The translations under genes were made by a program, and so were the position numbers. Shown here in pieces: positions 27,624 through 44,188 of a stretch of DNA of 48,066 nucleotides. This DNA is from Candidatus Paceibacterota bacterium. Lineage in GTDB: Bacteria > Patescibacteriota > Minisyncoccia > Minisyncoccales > RBG-13-42-11. The stretch covers positions 1 through 48,066 of the forward strand of contig JADHYE010000002.1 in NCBI GenBank assembly GCA_016782605.1, in the 5' to 3' direction. Below the pieces are notes generated by a model. It was not told the DNA's origin. It saw only the letters and a program-made list of their open reading frames with translations, and did no database searches. Position 1 is the first letter of the stretch. Every line of letters starts with the position of its first letter.

Positions 27624-28937
27624 TTAATTGGAAGAAATTGCTTCTGCTATTTTAAACGTTCCTGATTTTTCCCCTTCGACAAAGCCCTGCATGGCTGCTT
27701 CTGCCAAATAGCCTTTTTCCAACCAGTCAAAAAGCCATTGATTGATATAATTCGGATTTTCCTGCAAAAGCCCGAAGCCTGATTTTAAAAGCCACCTCTT
27801 ATTGAATTCTTCCTGGGAACCGATAGTGGGAGCAATGATCATCGGCAGACCCAAAACAGAATAAAAGGAAAGTTCTGATGGTTTTGTCCACAAGATATCT
27901 GTTTTTCTCAAAGCCTGGTTGAATTTTGCAAAATAGTTATTAATATCTTTGGCAAAAATAATTTCAGTTCCAAACCCCTTAGTATTCTTTTCAAAATAAT
28001 CTTTGACTTTCTCTTTGGTACCGGCAACCAAAATAACCCTAATTTCTTTTCTTTTTATCTTCTCTGCCAGCTTCTTAACGATTTTAACCCCGATTTCCTT
28101 CTGCGCGCCCGCTCCCCCGACAGCAAACATCAAGGTCAGAATATGGTCTGATTTTGCAGGCAAACTGCCCAAATAACTTTGAATCAAAGGCTCATAATGC
28201 CTGGAAAACCTTTTCCCAAGGTCAAGATTTAAAAGCCGGAATTTTAAATCATTTTTCAATGTTTCCAAATTCTCACTACCTGTATTCTCTGAGGGCAGGG
28301 GGTAGCCGGTTAAAACAACATTCTCTTCTTTAACTCCGTAAAGCTTCAACCTGTCAGCCACCCTTTCTGTCGGAACGAAATATTTGATTCTGCTTTTTTG
28401 GGGATCAAAAGGAGCCCAGGCCCGGGAAACATCAGCATCGCAAACAATGCAGAAAATATCGCCAGGATAATCAAAATATTCAGCCATAAAAGCCGGCACG
28501 AAAAAAGTACTGACAAAAGGAATATCTTTTCCAGAAGAAGACAATTTTTCAATAAAGTGCTTGCCCCAGCCTTTTTTAATCAATGAGAAGGTCTGCTTCA
28601 ATTGAAGGCTTGGCTTGGATAAGGTTTTGTTAGGATAAAAACTGAGGATTCTCTGGAAATAATCAAAAACAAAAAAAATGAACTGGCCGATTAAAGGAAT
28701 TTTCTTGAATTTTGAAACGAATTCATAGCTTTTTCTTGTCGTTTCCCAAATCTTTCTGTCTTTTTCTGGAATACCGGGATAATCATTGGCATTGACAACC
28801 TCTCCCTCAAAAGCCAAACCCCTCAGAGGATAAGCTGTCCTCTGGTGGCCGTAGCCCATGTTTACGGAAACAATCCAAGCCCCATTGGAAAATCTTTGAT
28901 TTCTAACGGGGTAAACTTTTTTGTTTGTCTCTGGCAT
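27624..28937 (-). CDS. GT-B-fold glycosyltransferase (MGDG synthase/MurG-like)
   Basis: The protein has 437 residues. The N-terminal part has IVSVNMGYGHQRTAYPLRG, the Gly-His loop seen in processive diacylglycerol glycosyltransferases and MurG. The C-terminal half has FAVGGAGAQKEIG and WTKPSELSFYSVLGLPMIIAP, the nucleotide-sugar site of this GT-B group. By inference it glycosylates a membrane lipid or similar acceptor on the cytoplasmic face. A 32-bp palindrome is read in frame at residues 9-19 (YPVRNQRFSNG), directly before the first beta strand. TATAAT lies eight bases before the ATG, so this gene probably begins the four-gene sugar operon. Confidence 0.75.
   Translation of the reverse strand: MPETNKKVYPVRNQRFSNGAWIVSVNMGYGHQRTAYPLRGLAFEGEVVNANDYPGIPEKDRKIWETTRKSYEFVSKFKKIPLIGQFIFFVFDYFQRILSFYPNKTLSKPSLQLKQTFSLIKKGWGKHFIEKLSSSGKDIPFVSTFFVPAFMAEYFDYPGDIFCIVCDADVSRAWAPFDPQKSRIKYFVPTERVADRLKLYGVKEENVVLTGYPLPSENTGSENLETLKNDLKFRLLNLDLGKRFSRHYEPLIQSYLGSLPAKSDHILTLMFAVGGAGAQKEIGVKIVKKLAEKIKRKEIRVILVAGTKEKVKDYFEKNTKGFGTEIIFAKDINNYFAKFNQALRKTDILWTKPSELSFYSVLGLPMIIAPTIGSQEEFNKRWLLKSGFGLLQENPNYINQWLFDWLEKGYLAEAAMQGFVEGEKSGTFKIAEAISSN
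28880..28911. repeat. 32-bp palindromic element inside the GT-B gene
   Basis: Arms CCCCATTGGAAAATC and GATTTCTAACGGGG around TTT. The right arm matches the ends of the elements at 38529-38630 and 43491-43552. It is translated in frame as PVRNQRFSNG. Confidence 0.75.
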
Positions 28938-37167: not shown

Positions 37168-37728
37168 ATGGTATTGATTGTTGGCCTGGGAAATCCGGGA
37201 GAAAAATACGAAAAAACAAGGCATAATGTCGGCTTTAAAACGATAGATAAAATCGCTGAAATTTTTGATTTCCCAATCTTTACTTCCAAACCTATTTTCA
37301 AAGCTGAAATTTCAAAAGGAACGTACGATAATAAAAAGATTGTTTTAGCCAGGCCCAAAACCTTCATGAATCTTTCGGGACAAACAGTAAAACTGCTGGT
37401 TAAAAGCTTAAAAACTAAAGATTTAATCGTTATTCACGACGATATCGACATTCCTTTGGGTAAGATAAGAATCGCCGATAACCGGGGAGCAGCCAACCAT
37501 AAGGGCGTAGAATCAATAATCAACGAACTAAAAACAAAGAGCTTCATAAGATTACGCATCGGTATAAAGCCGAAAACAAAGATTAAAGCTTTAGACAGAT
37601 TCGTTCTTCAAAAGTTTAATAAAGAAGAAGAAAAGATTGTAGAAGAAGTTATTAAAAAAGCCGCCGAAGCGGTTGAAACAATAGTGAGTAAAGGACTGCA
37701 AAAGGCGATGAATACATATAACAAATAA
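37168..37728 (+). CDS. pth: Peptidyl-tRNA hydrolase
   Basis: The protein has 186 residues with GLGNPGEKYEKTRHNVGF at 6-23, carrying the substrate-binding Asn and the catalytic His20. The DDIDIPLGKIRI segment holds the catalytic Asp (about residue 93), and RGAANHKGVESI follows. It frees tRNA from prematurely released peptidyl-tRNA. It is transcribed toward the GGDEF gene, with a hairpin between them. Confidence 0.94.
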   Translation: MVLIVGLGNPGEKYEKTRHNVGFKTIDKIAEIFDFPIFTSKPIFKAEISKGTYDNKKIVLARPKTFMNLSGQTVKLLVKSLKTKDLIVIHDDIDIPLGKIRIADNRGAANHKGVESIINELKTKSFIRLRIGIKPKTKIKALDRFVLQKFNKEEEKIVEEVIKKAAEAVETIVSKGLQKAMNTYNK

Positions 37729-37767: not shown

Positions 37768-38268
37768 TTACTTCTTGCTTTTTTTATCGCGATACATGCG
37801 TTCTTCAACAAGCTCAATCATAGATTCCAAACCATACTCGTGATCAAATCTAGACCCAGCCATTCCCCATGAGAATTTTGGAAATACTTCTTGAATACGC
37901 TGGATAATACTCATACTAGCTATTAAATTTACATCTAATAGAAGTAGAATAAACTCGTCTCCAGCATCGCTATGCCACCTTGCGCAAATGTCTAAAGGAC
38001 GAATATTTGCGAATATGGCTTGAGCAAATTCTTTAATTGCCATATCCCCAGCCCTATGCCCCCGTGTATCGTTGATCAATTTCAATCCGTCCATGTCAAG
38101 CATCGCCAAGGAAACTATTTGATTGTCTCTTTCGGCACGATTTAGTATCTTGCCAGCTATCCGCAGAAATTCTTTCCGAGTCATCGCGCCCGTTAGGGGG
38201 TCGCGAATCTCTATTATCTCGGGATTACGAAAAGCCACAGAAGCAGCTTCGATTCTCTTTTTCAGCAT
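37768..38268 (-). CDS. GGDEF-domain protein with altered active-site signature
   Basis: The protein has 166 residues from the ATG at 38268, which has a good Shine-Dalgarno (AGGAAGG). An upstream TTG at 38301 is rejected. The domain shows DPLTGAMTRKEF, SLAMLDMDGLKLINDTRGHRAGD (the metal-binding Asp and Asn are present) and, at the signature, RWHSDAGDEF: the first Gly is Ala and three residues are inserted compared with canonical R-[YF]-GGDEF. RPLD upstream resembles the inhibitory RxxD but is displaced by the insertion. It has no sensor domain or membrane segment. It may be a weak cyclase or a binding protein for c-di-GMP or GTP. It is preceded by a structured leader and strong promoter. Confidence 0.8.
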   Translation of the reverse strand: MLKKRIEAASVAFRNPEIIEIRDPLTGAMTRKEFLRIAGKILNRAERDNQIVSLAMLDMDGLKLINDTRGHRAGDMAIKEFAQAIFANIRPLDICARWHSDAGDEFILLLLDVNLIASMSIIQRIQEVFPKFSWGMAGSRFDHEYGLESMIELVEERMYRDKKSKK

Positions 38269-38306
38269 TGTTCCTTCCTTATAGAATAATATTAAGAGCA
38301 AAAATA

Positions 38307-38471
38307 TTTCGCCCTCGAGTCTACCTGCAAGCGTTATGAATCAGGAACAAAAGTCCAAATCCGTAACCTAGGGCACTAAGTTAAAGGAGGGATAACTTAG
38401 AATCCATCCTCCTGTTATCTCTAAAAGAGAGAACAGGGTTAAGCCACTGGCAGGCAGACTGTAAGGCGAAA
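38307..38471 (-). ncRNA. Structured RNA/leader of unknown class before the GGDEF gene
   Basis: The minus strand folds with a closing helix TTTCGCC/GGCGAAA (7 bp), a 4x4 internal loop, and AGTCTGCCTGC with GCAGGTAGACT (11 bp including one G-U). The G-U pair would be an A-C mismatch on the plus strand, supporting minus-strand transcription. Inside are TAACC/GGTTA, a hairpin CCTGTT...AACAGG, and a hairpin CTAAGTTA...TAACTTAG whose loop (CCTCCT) can pair with AGGAGG just upstream, a pseudoknot. The promoter at 38501-38528 starts transcription near 38494. It ends 38 bases before the GGDEF ATG. It could be a riboswitch-like leader or a free RNA; a T-run follows the closing helix. It does not match c-di-GMP, cobalamin or 6S motifs that I know. 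Confidence 0.6.
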
Positions 38472-38500
38472 CTTTGACAAAAAACAACGATATATTATAT

Positions 38501-38528
38501 ATTATACATAATTGAATGAATTTGTCAA
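38501..38528 (-). promoter_or_regulatory. Near-consensus promoter of the structured RNA/GGDEF unit
   Basis: TTGACA (38523-38528), a 16-base spacer and TATAAT (38501-38506), both perfect, on the minus strand. The -35 touches the end of the element at 38529-38630. Confidence 0.8.
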
Positions 38529-38630
38529 CCCCGTTAGAAATTTTACATTTGTAGGTATTTAGAACAATTATTTATTATTCTTAAAATTAACTATTGGGTA
38601 ATGCCTATGGATCAAAAATTTCTAACGGGG
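38529..38630. mobile_element. 102-bp inverted-repeat (MITE-like) element at the mfd start
   Basis: CCCCGTTAGAAATTTT (38529-38544) and AAAATTTCTAACGGGG (38615-38630) are perfect 16-bp terminal inverted repeats. TCAA flanks both sides directly (38525-38528 and 38631-38634), an apparent 4-bp target duplication. The interior is AT-rich without an ORF of its own. The right arm is read as KFLTG at the beginning of the mfd frame. Confidence 0.7.
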
Positions 38631-40583
38631 TCAATGATAGAAAGACTTTTAATTTGTAGTATCACCCCCTACTTTTTGGGAAAGGGGAACTTTTGGCTTA
38701 AAGAAAACCTTGACAAACTCCTGGAAGCGAAGAAAACCCAAGCCTTTTTCCAAGACAATATCCTCTTTCTAATGAAAAACCAGAAAAACAACCTTTCTGA
38801 GACCCTAAGGAAACTTGACGAAATGGGATACGAAAGGGTTTGGCAGGTTTCAGAACCGGGAGAATTCTCGCAACGAGGAGGAATTGTTGATGTTTTCCCC
38901 GTTAATTCAATGAAAGCAGCAAGATTGGAATTCCTGGGAAACAAAATTGAAAATATAGAACAGCTTCCCATAGAAATCAAGGATGAAAAATCAGCAAAAG
39001 AGATTTTAAAAAAGAAATTGAAATCGCAAAAGCTTTTTTCCGATTTAAAGGGACTAAAACCCGGAGAATATTTAGTTCATCTGGACCACGGCATCGGAAT
39101 TTACTTCCAGCAGATAACAATTGATAACCAGCAGTATTATCAATTGGAATATGCGCAAGGCGATAAATTATATGTGCCATTGGGGCTGGAAAGAAAACTG
39201 TCAAGATACGTTGGTTTTATCGAACCGAAAATCTCCAGATTAAGCTCCTCTCTTTGGCAAAGGGTAAAAAGAAAGATAAAAGAAGAGACGGAAAAACTGG
39301 CCAAAGAGCTTTTAGAAATCTATGCTAAAAGGGAAATTGCCACCCGTCCGTCTTACTTACTAGAAGAAGAAATCCAACAGCATTTGTCAGATACTTTCAA
39401 ATACGAGGAAACACCTGACCAATTACAGGCTATTGAAGACATTAAAAAAGACATGGAAAAGCAAGAGCCAATGGACAGAATTGTTTGCGGAGACGTAGGC
39501 TTTGGTAAAACTGAAGTGGCTTTAAGGGCAATAATAAAAGCGGTAATTTCTAACAGGCAGGCAGTAATGATCTGTCCCACAACCATTCTGGCCAATCAAC
39601 ATTTCCAGAAGTTTCAGGAAAGATTAGGAAGCTTGCCGATAAAAATAGCGTTGTTGTCACGGCTACAAACGAAAAAAGAACAAAAACAAATAATTGAAGA
39701 ATTAAAGACCGGTAAAATTGACATTGCCATCGGCACTCATCGTCTTTTATCGAAAGATATTGATTTTAAGAATCTCGGACTTTTGATTATTGATGACGAA
39801 CAAAGATTCGGCGTAAAGCAAAAAGAGAGATTAAAAAAAATGAGGACTTCTCTGGATGTTTTGTCGCTATCTGCCACGCCTATCCCCCGAACACTATATA
39901 TGGCGCTTTCTTCGCTAAAAAACATCAGCTTGATTCAAACGCCTCCTGTCGGACGCTTACCAATTAAAACTTTTCTATCGCCATTTAAAAAAGAAATCAT
40001 TAAAAAAGCGATTGAAAATGAAATCAAAAGAAAAGGACAAATATATTTCCTTTACAACAGGGTGGAAACGATTGAAATGATAAAAGAATCGTTAAAAGAA
40101 CTATTTCCCAAAGCAAGATACGCTATCGCCCACGGCAGAATGAAAGAAAAAGAACTGCTTAAAACTATGGATGATTTTCAAGACAAAAGAATTGACGTTT
40201 TAGTGGCAACGACTATTATTGAAAACGGGCTGGATTTACCGAATGTTAATACGCTGATTGTGGCTGACAGCACTCGTTTAGGCCTTTCTCAGGCGTATCA
40301 GATAAGAGGAAGGATCGGCCGTTCTCATATCCAGGCTTTTTCCTATTTCCTTTACCCCAACAAATTGTCTCCTTTAGCTAAATTAAGATTAAAAACTTTA
40401 AAAGAGGCAGAAGAATTGGGCTCTGGCTATAAAATAGCTCTGAAAGATTTGGAAATACGGGGAGCGGGCAATATCTTGGGCAAGGAGCAATCAGGCAGCA
40501 TAAACCGTGTGGGTCTTAATCTCTATTGTCAAATGTTATCAGAGGTTATTGAGAAGCTAAAAATTGCCAGACCTGCCCCGTAG
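38601..40583 (+). CDS. mfd: Transcription-repair coupling factor Mfd, truncated at both ends
   Basis: The protein has 660 residues against about 1100 for typical Mfd. The N-terminal UvrB-like region is mostly missing; recognisable sequence begins near SITPYFLGK and GYERVWQVSEPGEFSQRGGI. The CarD-like RNA-polymerase-binding domain follows (EYLVHLDHGIGIY, about 155-215). The helicase part has Walker A GDVGFGKT at 297-304, DDEQR, LSATPIPRTLYMAL and the translocation motif through GRIGRSHIQAF. The last part ends RGAGNILGKEQSGSINRVG, then stops in a palindrome, with the C-terminal regulatory domain absent. The first codons lie in a MITE-like element, so the true start is unsure (38601 or ATG 38634). 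It could be a streamlined translocase or a decaying gene. Confidence 0.8.
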   Translation: MPMDQKFLTGSMIERLLICSITPYFLGKGNFWLKENLDKLLEAKKTQAFFQDNILFLMKNQKNNLSETLRKLDEMGYERVWQVSEPGEFSQRGGIVDVFPVNSMKAARLEFLGNKIENIEQLPIEIKDEKSAKEILKKKLKSQKLFSDLKGLKPGEYLVHLDHGIGIYFQQITIDNQQYYQLEYAQGDKLYVPLGLERKLSRYVGFIEPKISRLSSSLWQRVKRKIKEETEKLAKELLEIYAKREIATRPSYLLEEEIQQHLSDTFKYEETPDQLQAIEDIKKDMEKQEPMDRIVCGDVGFGKTEVALRAIIKAVISNRQAVMICPTTILANQHFQKFQERLGSLPIKIALLSRLQTKKEQKQIIEELKTGKIDIAIGTHRLLSKDIDFKNLGLLIIDDEQRFGVKQKERLKKMRTSLDVLSLSATPIPRTLYMALSSLKNISLIQTPPVGRLPIKTFLSPFKKEIIKKAIENEIKRKGQIYFLYNRVETIEMIKESLKELFPKARYAIAHGRMKEKELLKTMDDFQDKRIDVLVATTIIENGLDLPNVNTLIVADSTRLGLSQAYQIRGRIGRSHIQAFSYFLYPNKLSPLAKLRLKTLKEAEELGSGYKIALKDLEIRGAGNILGKEQSGSINRVGLNLYCQMLSEVIEKLKIARPAP

Positions 40584-42907: not shown

Positions 42908-43490
42908 ATTCCCTCAAAATCTTCGGCTGAGAACTGGTATTATCAATCACTTTTGAGGGTTTAGCTAATTTTAATTTACCAGCAGAAATTATTAAATCGG
43001 GCTTGTCTTTCTTAAATTGCTTGATTATTTCTTTTACGTCCATTAGCGGCTTTTTGCCCGAAATATTCGCTGAAGTTTGAACAAGGGGTTTTTTGATTTT
43101 TCCAAGTAGCTTATTCAATAAAGCATAATTAGGAATCCTAAGGGCAATAGTATCTTTATTAACGCCGTATATCTTTATTTTATTTCTTCTTTTTAAAACT
43201 ACTGTTGTTTTACCGGGCCAAACAGATTTTAAGAATCTTTCTTGCTTTTTGTCTATTATAGCAAGTTTTTTCGCCGTTTTCAGATTGCTTATAAAAATCG
43301 GCAAAGACTTTGTTTTTTTTCTTTTTTTAATTTTGAAAATCTTTTCAACTGCTTTTTCATTCGTCGCGTCAGCCATCAATCCGTAAACAGTATCTGTCGG
43401 GAAAACAACAATTCCGCCTTTTCTCACTATCTCAACTGCTTTTCTAATTATATTTGAGAAAGTTTTTGATGAAAGATTTAAAATTTCCAT
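42906..43490 (-). CDS. tsaC: Threonylcarbamoyl-AMP synthase (Sua5/YrdC/TsaC)
   Basis: The protein has 194 residues with GGIVVFPTDTVYGLMADA near the N-terminus, KKRKKTKSLPIFI in the basic ATP/RNA site, and PLVQTSANISGKKPL in the C-terminal part, the YrdC core. It makes threonylcarbamoyl-adenylate for t6A37 on ANN-decoding tRNAs. It lacks the extra Sua5 domain, so the short TsaC form fits. The ATG at 43490 touches a palindromic element, and no Shine-Dalgarno is seen. Confidence 0.92.
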   Translation of the reverse strand: MEILNLSSKTFSNIIRKAVEIVRKGGIVVFPTDTVYGLMADATNEKAVEKIFKIKKRKKTKSLPIFISNLKTAKKLAIIDKKQERFLKSVWPGKTTVVLKRRNKIKIYGVNKDTIALRIPNYALLNKLLGKIKKPLVQTSANISGKKPLMDVKEIIKQFKKDKPDLIISAGKLKLAKPSKVIDNTSSQPKILRE

Positions 43491-43552
43491 CCCGTTAGAA
43501 ATTTAATAGTTTTATTTATCCCATTAGATTTCCGTAAAGAATTTCTAACGGG
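43491..43552. repeat. 62-bp composite palindromic element at the tsaC start
   Basis: Outer arms CCCGTTAGAAATT (43491-43503) and AATTTCTAACGGG (43540-43552). An inner copy CCCATTAGATTTC (43520-43532) pairs with the same right arm, so it looks like a palindrome that gained an extra arm. It shares arms with the elements at 28880 and 38529. Its left edge touches the tsaC ATG. Confidence 0.7.
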
Positions 43553-43594
43553 ATTCATTTTTTTATTCTATCATTTTTTGAATTTAAAATGAAA

Positions 43595-43645: not shown

Positions 43646-44188
43646 TCAATTGGGTGGCGAAGTGTAGCCGAAGAAGGGCACCATTCGATAGAGAGTAACC
43701 GATCTGTACTTTGTAACGGTCCGGTACTTTGTTAACTCCCTATACTGAGTGACAGTCCTTTCTTTCGTAACCTCTTTATGCTTTGTAACTGTCCGGCTCT
43801 TCGTTACTTCCCTAAATCCAGTCTCCGTACAATAATTTGTGCAGTAGATTGGTGAACATTCAGGTTCCGGAGGGGGCGGTATTGGAGGATGTCCCGGAGG
43901 GGACGGCCATGGTTTTGGATTACAATTCCGTCCACAAGCATATATACCACAGGCTACTTGATATGAGTATGGTTCGTATTCGGTATAATACTCTGTAGCA
44001 TCGTACGGTTCATCTTCGGTATAGGTTTCCGTTACCTGGTAGGGATCTGGAACCGTATAAGCCTCTTGGACATCATAAGGCTCCTGGACAATATAGCTTT
44101 CTTGTTTTATCGGAACACAAAAGCCAACTGTCAAAAGAAGAGCCAATGCCACTAAAACTACAATAGTCCAGCTAGCTCCCGAAGTCAT
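43646..44188 (-). CDS. Secreted or membrane-anchored protein with acidic and basic repeats
   Basis: The protein has 180 residues. A signal anchor lies at about 7-24 (WTIVVLVALALLLTVGF), with Cys24 at its end but no clean lipobox. Residues 30-75 repeat an acidic, Tyr-rich unit (QEPYDVQEAYTVPDPY, TEDEPYDATEYYTEYEPY). A Cys/Pro-rich centre (about 79-122, PPIPPPPEPE) follows. Residues 125-168 repeat a basic unit (REVTKSRTVTKHKEVTKE, YRTVTKYRSVT). The two halves have opposite charge and the same seven- to eight-residue period. The gene has a strong promoter, Shine-Dalgarno GGAGGT and a terminator, so it is probably well expressed. I do not recognise a family. Confidence 0.75.
   Translation of the reverse strand: MTSGASWTIVVLVALALLLTVGFCVPIKQESYIVQEPYDVQEAYTVPDPYQVTETYTEDEPYDATEYYTEYEPYSYQVACGIYACGRNCNPKPWPSPPGHPPIPPPPEPECSPIYCTNYCTETGFREVTKSRTVTKHKEVTKERTVTQYRELTKYRTVTKYRSVTLYRMVPFFGYTSPPN

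Follow-up and report, generated by a model that had tools for sequence, protein, structure and literature searches.

Organization of the locus

The window, by which we mean the whole 48,066-nt stretch of DNA analysed here, carries a minus-strand promoter and structured RNA between the genes for peptidyl-tRNA hydrolase (pth) and an mfd-type helicase, with a GGDEF gene attached downstream of the RNA (Table 1). The original prediction had placed a near-perfect promoter and a structured RNA on the minus strand of this segment, and each of these points held. The promoter matches the consensus at 12 of 12 positions, and the 195-nt minus-strand sequence folds with a minimum free energy (MFE) of -74.9 kcal/mol, as compared to -44.5 +/- 4.1 kcal/mol for its shuffles (z = -7.5; 0 of 200 shuffles were as stable). 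The fold of the plus strand is weaker relative to its own shuffles (z = -4.8), and a covariance model of the RNA, R1, scores the minus strand at 154 bits and the plus strand at 28 bits. The minus-strand match of R1 to the window (154.2 bits, E = 2e-37) spans the model from end to end (1-174), but R1 was built from eight sequences that include the window's own, and all covariance E-values given here are rough owing to a shortened calibration. Behind the consensus promoter lies a minus-strand RNA with a strong fold. The segment that was originally delimited is real, but its 3' limit had to be moved, as the RNA reaches position ~38303.

Table 1. Features of the RNA locus and of the genes that flank it (window coordinates).
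Feature	Position	Strand	Remarks
mfd-type helicase	38601..40583	+	5' side, divergent; DEAD/Helicase_C/CarD_TRCF_RID
Promoter, TTGACA-16-TATAAT	38501..38528	-	Top-scoring site within 4 kb
Predicted transcription start	~38494	-	Placed from the promoter
Structured RNA core	38303..38473	-	Limits from the covariance model
P1 closing helix, 5' arm, AGUUUCGCCUUACAGUCUGCCUGCCAG	38447..38473	-	27/27 pairs with two-sided changes, 94% of cells paired (37-member alignment)
P3 optional hairpin, CCUGUUCUCUCUUUUAGAGAUAACAGG	38411..38437	-	13/13 pairs covary where present
Competing hairpin, GGAGGAUGGAU...AUCCCUCC	38386..38412	-	Hides the loop; window family only
P4 hairpin	38376..38402	-	Presents the invariant loop; 7 pairs, every one with two-sided changes
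Invariant loop, AUCCCUCCUUU, core CCCUCCU	38383..38393	-	84/84 members
P5 variable hairpin	38333..38368	-	9 pairs, every one with two-sided changes
P1 closing helix, 3' arm, CUUGCAGGUAGACUCGAGGGCGAAAUA	38305..38331	-	27/27 P1 pairs covary (37 members)
GGDEF gene, preceded by AAGGAAGG	37768..38268	-	Attached downstream, lineage-specific; PF00990, E = 2e-23
pth, peptidyl-tRNA hydrolase	37168..37728	+	3' side, convergent; PF01195, E = 6e-62

Two other features of the window were observed. A dispersed repeat, TTTCTAACGGG(G/A)T, occurs at positions 28900-28912 (+), 38528-38540 (-) and 38619-38631 (+), with variants at 43489-43501 (-) and 43542-43554 (+); its first 11 bases are present in 15 copies in 424 kb of the window's genome, and two inverted copies lie between the RNA promoter and the mfd start. 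The 180-aa product of 43646-44188 (-) begins with a hydrophobic stretch and contains many recurring short motifs (EPYDVQEAY / TVTKYR); it has no Pfam match, and its gene is preceded by GGAGGTGC.

Distribution of the RNA family

BLAST searches of 99 relatives returned partial matches that share the same architecture when placed side by side; the matches in L005, L011 and L012 covered the promoter only and were left out (by eye, the RNA of L011 resembles RNase P). R1 detected the RNA in 33 of the 247 genomes of the order, with E-values reaching 1e-41. Each of these genomes holds one copy, save for weaker echoes on the opposite strand and one marginal second match, and the 61-nt match in G008 is doubtful. 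Two further models were built from compact members: R2, a compact model, was positive in 40 of the 384 class genomes searched, and R3, a class-wide model, detected the RNA in 35 of a phylum-wide sample of 323 genomes and, when run on the order again, in 29 of 247, including two that R1 had missed (G053 and G148). The iterated covariance searches yielded 84 good examples, one per genome, of which 29 are in the order and 55 outside it. The resulting frequency, ~10-14% of the genomes sampled in the order, class and phylum, is a lower bound, because strict filters apply to searches of more than 40 genomes.

The description of the RNA as undescribed withstood a scan of Rfam 15, as no family matches the window at its gathering score and open thresholds bring up only a meaningless lncRNA match (E = 3.2); five relatives were scanned with an open threshold and likewise gave no match. 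Among the open-access papers searched, we found none on a structured RNA, on 6S RNA or on loss of the anti-Shine-Dalgarno sequence in this group. We rate the RNA as a new family of a known general kind, namely a regulatory RNA with a C-rich loop, and consider an earlier description possible.

Covariation within the helices

The closing helices of the original prediction are present as P1, which in the window comprises about 27 bp with small interruptions, whereas the two inner hairpins proposed within it became three (P3, P4 and P5), with P3 missing in many relatives. In many members, the spacers on either side of P4, towards P1 and towards P5, contain GGCGAAA ... GAGUAGCC, which would leave room for a short helix, P2, and for an internal loop that by eye resembles the loop-E motif. 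Two members (L040:1501-1747 and L041:1497-1748) have extra large hairpins on the junction, which bring the RNA to ~250 nt.

Compensatory changes in the helices had been put forward with the original prediction as its own test, and they are abundant. In an alignment of 37 members that was fitted to the model, and is biased towards it, two-sided changes are seen at every one of the 44 consensus pairs, and pairing is kept in 92% of the cells. Shuffled data gave at most 32 such pairs and 65% of cells, with 0 of 500 shuffles reaching the observed covariation, and when the structures were slid by 1-3 columns in the 37-member alignment pairing was 40-46%. A count within the order alone found two-sided changes at 54 of 57 pairs, again in an alignment fitted to and biased towards the model (29 members), and RNAalifold already recovers 28 of 47 pairs from a plain MAFFT alignment of eight sequences. 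These data also bear on the idea that the segment is a chance fold or a DNA palindrome and not an RNA. A long, near-perfect inverted repeat does score on both strands, as a palindrome would; however, the conserved loop is strand-specific, the helices covary on both sides while the slid controls retain half the pairing, and the promoter, the synteny and the single copy per genome are conserved. In our view the covariation refutes this idea, which is now hardly credible.

An invariant loop and a hairpin that may mask it

The stems of the RNA change freely, and its sole invariant sequence is the CCCUCCU loop of P4, which occurs in 84 of 84 members across the order, class and phylum (one position is kept in 83 of 84); the pattern used to extract the loop required most of these letters, and every candidate satisfied it. 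In 79 of the 84 members the loop is predicted to be unpaired (median 0.98), and it is predicted to be hidden in the window (L026), L025 and L003. In the window the competing hairpin gives an MFE of -74.9 kcal/mol, as compared to -68.2 kcal/mol with P4 forced. What had been read as a possible pseudoknot between AGGAGG and CCTCCT is, in the window, a nested hairpin in competition with P4. The accompanying proposal, that folding masks one of these elements, stands for the window's family, where the loop is predicted to be hidden at all three loci just named; in 79 members it is predicted to be exposed. We also considered AGGAGG-CCTCCT pairing as a trait of all members and rejected it, because the partner CCUCC is conserved but AGGAGG is not, and the pairing is confined to the window's family. 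As modeled, the competing hairpin appears to be a local addition in that family and is a candidate on/off switch.

Conserved gene order and variable attached genes

From the window to other classes, the RNA occupies a conserved place at nearly every locus, mfd/dprA/topA < RNA > pth, with pth on the 3' side in nearly all cases and mfd, dprA or topA on the 5' side (gene names at loci outside the window were assigned by eye from sequence). The features of an independent transcription unit recur at this place. A simple pattern finds a TTGACA/TATAAT-type promoter there in 60 of the 84 members (24 of 29 in the order and 36 of 55 outside it), and simple scans predict an intrinsic terminator with no attached gene bearing a Shine-Dalgarno (SD) site at 34 of 84 loci (27 of 55 outside the order, where the terminator lies close behind P1, and 7 of 29 within it). 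Because, outside the order, a terminator often follows the RNA with no gene attached, the RNA is, judged from its sequence context, an independent ncRNA gene, whose transcription we infer. An independent RNA had been the second of the two natures originally proposed, and it is this one that its own promoter and the predicted terminators favor.

In most relatives, the position of the GGDEF gene is taken by a different gene or by none. Pfam confirms an attached GGDEF gene in only 3 of the 84 members (the window, L049 and L052), to which the originally proposed link with GGDEF genes is thus reduced. A CDP-alcohol phosphatidyltransferase is attached in L032 and L037 by Pfam, and in L033 a similar one by eye; the gene attached in L036 encodes a CAP-like protein at E = 0.001, just below the curated cut-off, and four other attached genes that were tested have no Pfam match. 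As the attached genes vary in this manner, GGDEF is not the regular partner of the RNA, though three families of the order have it in this position. When named genomes were searched with GGDEF as the guide, the only GGDEF genes recovered were distant ones from Clostridia and rhizobia, and the RNA did not come up.

The first of the two natures, a ligand-sensing leader, corresponds to a cis-acting riboswitch or attenuator that controls the attached gene and of which the ncRNA-like copies would be degenerate forms. It would account for the close placement of the attached genes in the order, as 15 of 17 have a strong SD and a start that lies 13-40 nt past the RNA, and for the masking hairpin in the window's family. 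A riboswitch leader belongs to the 5' UTR of the genes of one pathway, whereas the genes attached here are unrelated (GGDEF, CDP-alcohol phosphatidyltransferase, CAP-like below the cut-off, unknown small proteins) or absent; outside the order, roughly every second locus has a terminator followed by the convergent pth, with nothing for a leader to control, and nonetheless keeps the loop, and no pocket-like conserved core is seen in the RNA, only the one strongly conserved loop. We regard a leader of this kind as improbable.

Loss of the 16S anti-Shine-Dalgarno and remaining SD sites

The sequence CCUCC is the core of the anti-Shine-Dalgarno (anti-SD) in 16S rRNA, and its presence in the loop was the reason for examining the 16S rRNA genes. 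In the window's genome, the 3' end of 16S rRNA reads GGATCACTACATTTCTAA where GGATCACCTCCTTTCTA is expected (L054, L065; G000:C4), and within the order CCUCC is absent after GGAUCA in 30 of the 31 genomes whose 3' end could be read. In the one exception, G190, helix 45 of the 16S rRNA is built differently, and the sequence may derive from a foreign contig. Most other orders of the class retain CACCTCCTTTCT, among them about 14 RNA-positive genomes (one of these, G419, by a marginal match). The anti-SD has also been lost in several other clades of the class (e.g. G274, G318, G259, G303, G457, G498 and G537), and several clades with this loss gave no match to the RNA. Among 28 RNA-negative genomes of the order, the pth locus shows no such RNA in 27 and a weak one in G016; in G061, whose contig ends 72 bases past pth, and G012, whose pth frame was not recovered, the negative comes from the model search alone. 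Since the RNA coexists with an intact anti-SD, it is older than the loss and is no simple substitute for it. A simple replacement of the lost 16S anti-SD was rejected on this ground and because the order also contains genomes in which the anti-SD is lost and the RNA is absent.

Sites that could pair with an anti-SD are scarce. In 424 kb of the window's genome, AGGAG or GGAGG lies at a usable distance from 6.9% of long ORFs (24 of 349), which is near chance, as permuted control motifs do so at 5.1 +/- 1.4%; two sampled relatives with an anti-SD are likewise SD-poor. By comparison, a strong AAGGAGG-type SD precedes 15 of the 17 RNA-attached genes of the order (Fisher p about 2e-14, a rough value because the ORF criteria of the two counts differ). 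Elsewhere in the window's genome, outside the window, a minority of genes have a perfect AAGGAGG despite the 16S rRNA without an anti-SD (e.g. L076, L078, L080, L082, L086 and L089), and many of them are small and, by look, lineage-specific. Two readings compete for the SDs of the attached genes: they may be retained because the loop of the RNA pairs with them, or the genes may be recent imports with canonical SDs. Against the first, the attached SDs often read AAGGAGGUGA or continue as GGAGGUGA, the complement of the normal 16S tail, and not as GGAGGG, such that AAGGAGGUGA fits the standard 16S anti-SD better than the CCCUCCU loop; moreover, SD-bearing genes occur in G084, a genome without an anti-SD in which no RNA was found and where 7 of 15 AAGGAGG sites precede starts. 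Against the second, the SD rate is far higher than in other genes.

A more radical interpretation is a split anti-SD, in which the RNA gives SD recognition to the ribosome in trans in the order whose 16S rRNA is without CCUCC, the free RNA directing ribosomes to, or away from, a limited number of messages that bear an SD. The loss in 30 of 31 readable genomes, the retention of CCCUCCUU in the RNA and the AAGGAGG kept by the attached genes and a few others are what it would predict. It conflicts with the age of the RNA, which predates the loss and accompanies an intact anti-SD in about 14 genomes, with its detection in just 33 of 247 genomes of the order and its absence from the pth locus of most RNA-negative ones tested, and with genome-wide SDs that are near chance even where the RNA is present. 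We consider it very improbable.

Comparison with known RNAs and proposed mechanism

Pairing of C-rich regions with SD sites is established for RoxS/RsaE and FsrA of the Firmicutes, which bind several mRNAs at their SD sites in a species that does not rely on Hfq as the hub (PMC8216469). Like the present RNA they are independent sRNA genes, but they differ from it in that it has a long P1 and a junction, a single CCCUCCU loop, synteny with pth, no Rfam similarity, and hosts whose 16S rRNA may be without an anti-SD. EcpR1 of the Rhizobiales also presents a conserved loop on a structurally conserved hairpin, which pairs over the ribosome-binding sites of its targets (PMC4414408), although its loop is its own (UCCGCCGCAUCU), its fold is another and it belongs to another phylum. 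The CCUCCU core is shared with the 3' end of 16S rRNA, where AUC-CCUCCUU resembles AUCACCUCCUU; in contrast to that free tail, the present RNA is a separate gene that carries the core in a hairpin loop, has C where 16S rRNA has A, and retains CCUCC where 16S rRNA has lost it.

Our preferred explanation, to which as a whole we assign a probability of about 0.5, is that this is a regulatory RNA, old within the phylum and about 120-250 nt long, whose exposed anti-SD-like loop base-pairs with purine-rich stretches where mRNAs start. We infer the pairing partner and the direction of regulation as follows. The long P1 would close the junction, from which P4 would rise to present CCCUCCU; the loop would then pair in trans with purine-rich sites of the type AGGAGG(G) near the starts of messages and thereby block, or perhaps adjust, the initiation of translation in the manner of C-rich sRNAs such as RoxS. 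Read-through into the attached gene (GGDEF in the window) would allow action in cis on that gene's SD-like site, and in the window's family the competing hairpin would hide the loop and so create an on/off state. The exposed conserved stretch that marks C-rich SD-targeting sRNAs is found here, as CCCUCCU is invariant and predicted to be exposed in 79 of 84 members. In the genomes sampled, sites of extended complementarity, AAGGAGGG, are few before starts and are not enriched over other AAGGAGGN, and the pattern of attached SDs could in part stem from imported genes that still carry their former SDs.

The main rival is a housekeeping RNA that works through a protein, since a loop that binds a protein would be expected to be invariant just as much as one that pairs with mRNA. 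CCCUCCU could bind, for example, a factor that otherwise handles the 3' end of 16S rRNA, whose sequence GAUCACCUCC the loop resembles, or the whole RNA could serve RNA polymerase in the role of 6S RNA. A single copy per genome, a near-consensus promoter, a fixed place across the phylum and a loop that stays invariant while the stems change freely would all agree with such a function, as would retention of the RNA in genomes that have neither an anti-SD nor an attached gene (L042, L044, L047 and L051). The 6S family (RF00013) has no match at E <= 1 in the 12 RNA-positive genomes searched and is found in 6 of 14 control genomes; this absence of a recognisable 6S RNA leaves room for a 6S-like role, though the anatomy speaks otherwise. 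Both RNAs are single-copy and similar in length, with a long closing helix and a strong promoter of their own, but 6S RNA is a rod with a central bubble, whereas the present RNA has a junction with hairpins and an exposed hairpin loop and is without similarity to it or, also below threshold, to any other Rfam family. In addition, the RNA is undetected in most sampled genomes and not seen at the pth locus in 27 of 28 RNA-negative ones, unlike an essential housekeeping RNA, and a candidate protein is lacking. We judge a protein-dependent housekeeping function to be possible but rather unlikely.

As a widespread, uncatalogued, single-copy RNA, the family provides a concrete regulatory RNA, on our preferred explanation, for a phylum that is known mostly from genomes. 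The lineages that have lost the 16S anti-SD and keep the loop core offer a test of CCUCC-type sequences apart from classical initiation. A split anti-SD, if true, would mean that mRNA recognition has moved from the ribosomal RNA to a separate RNA gene.
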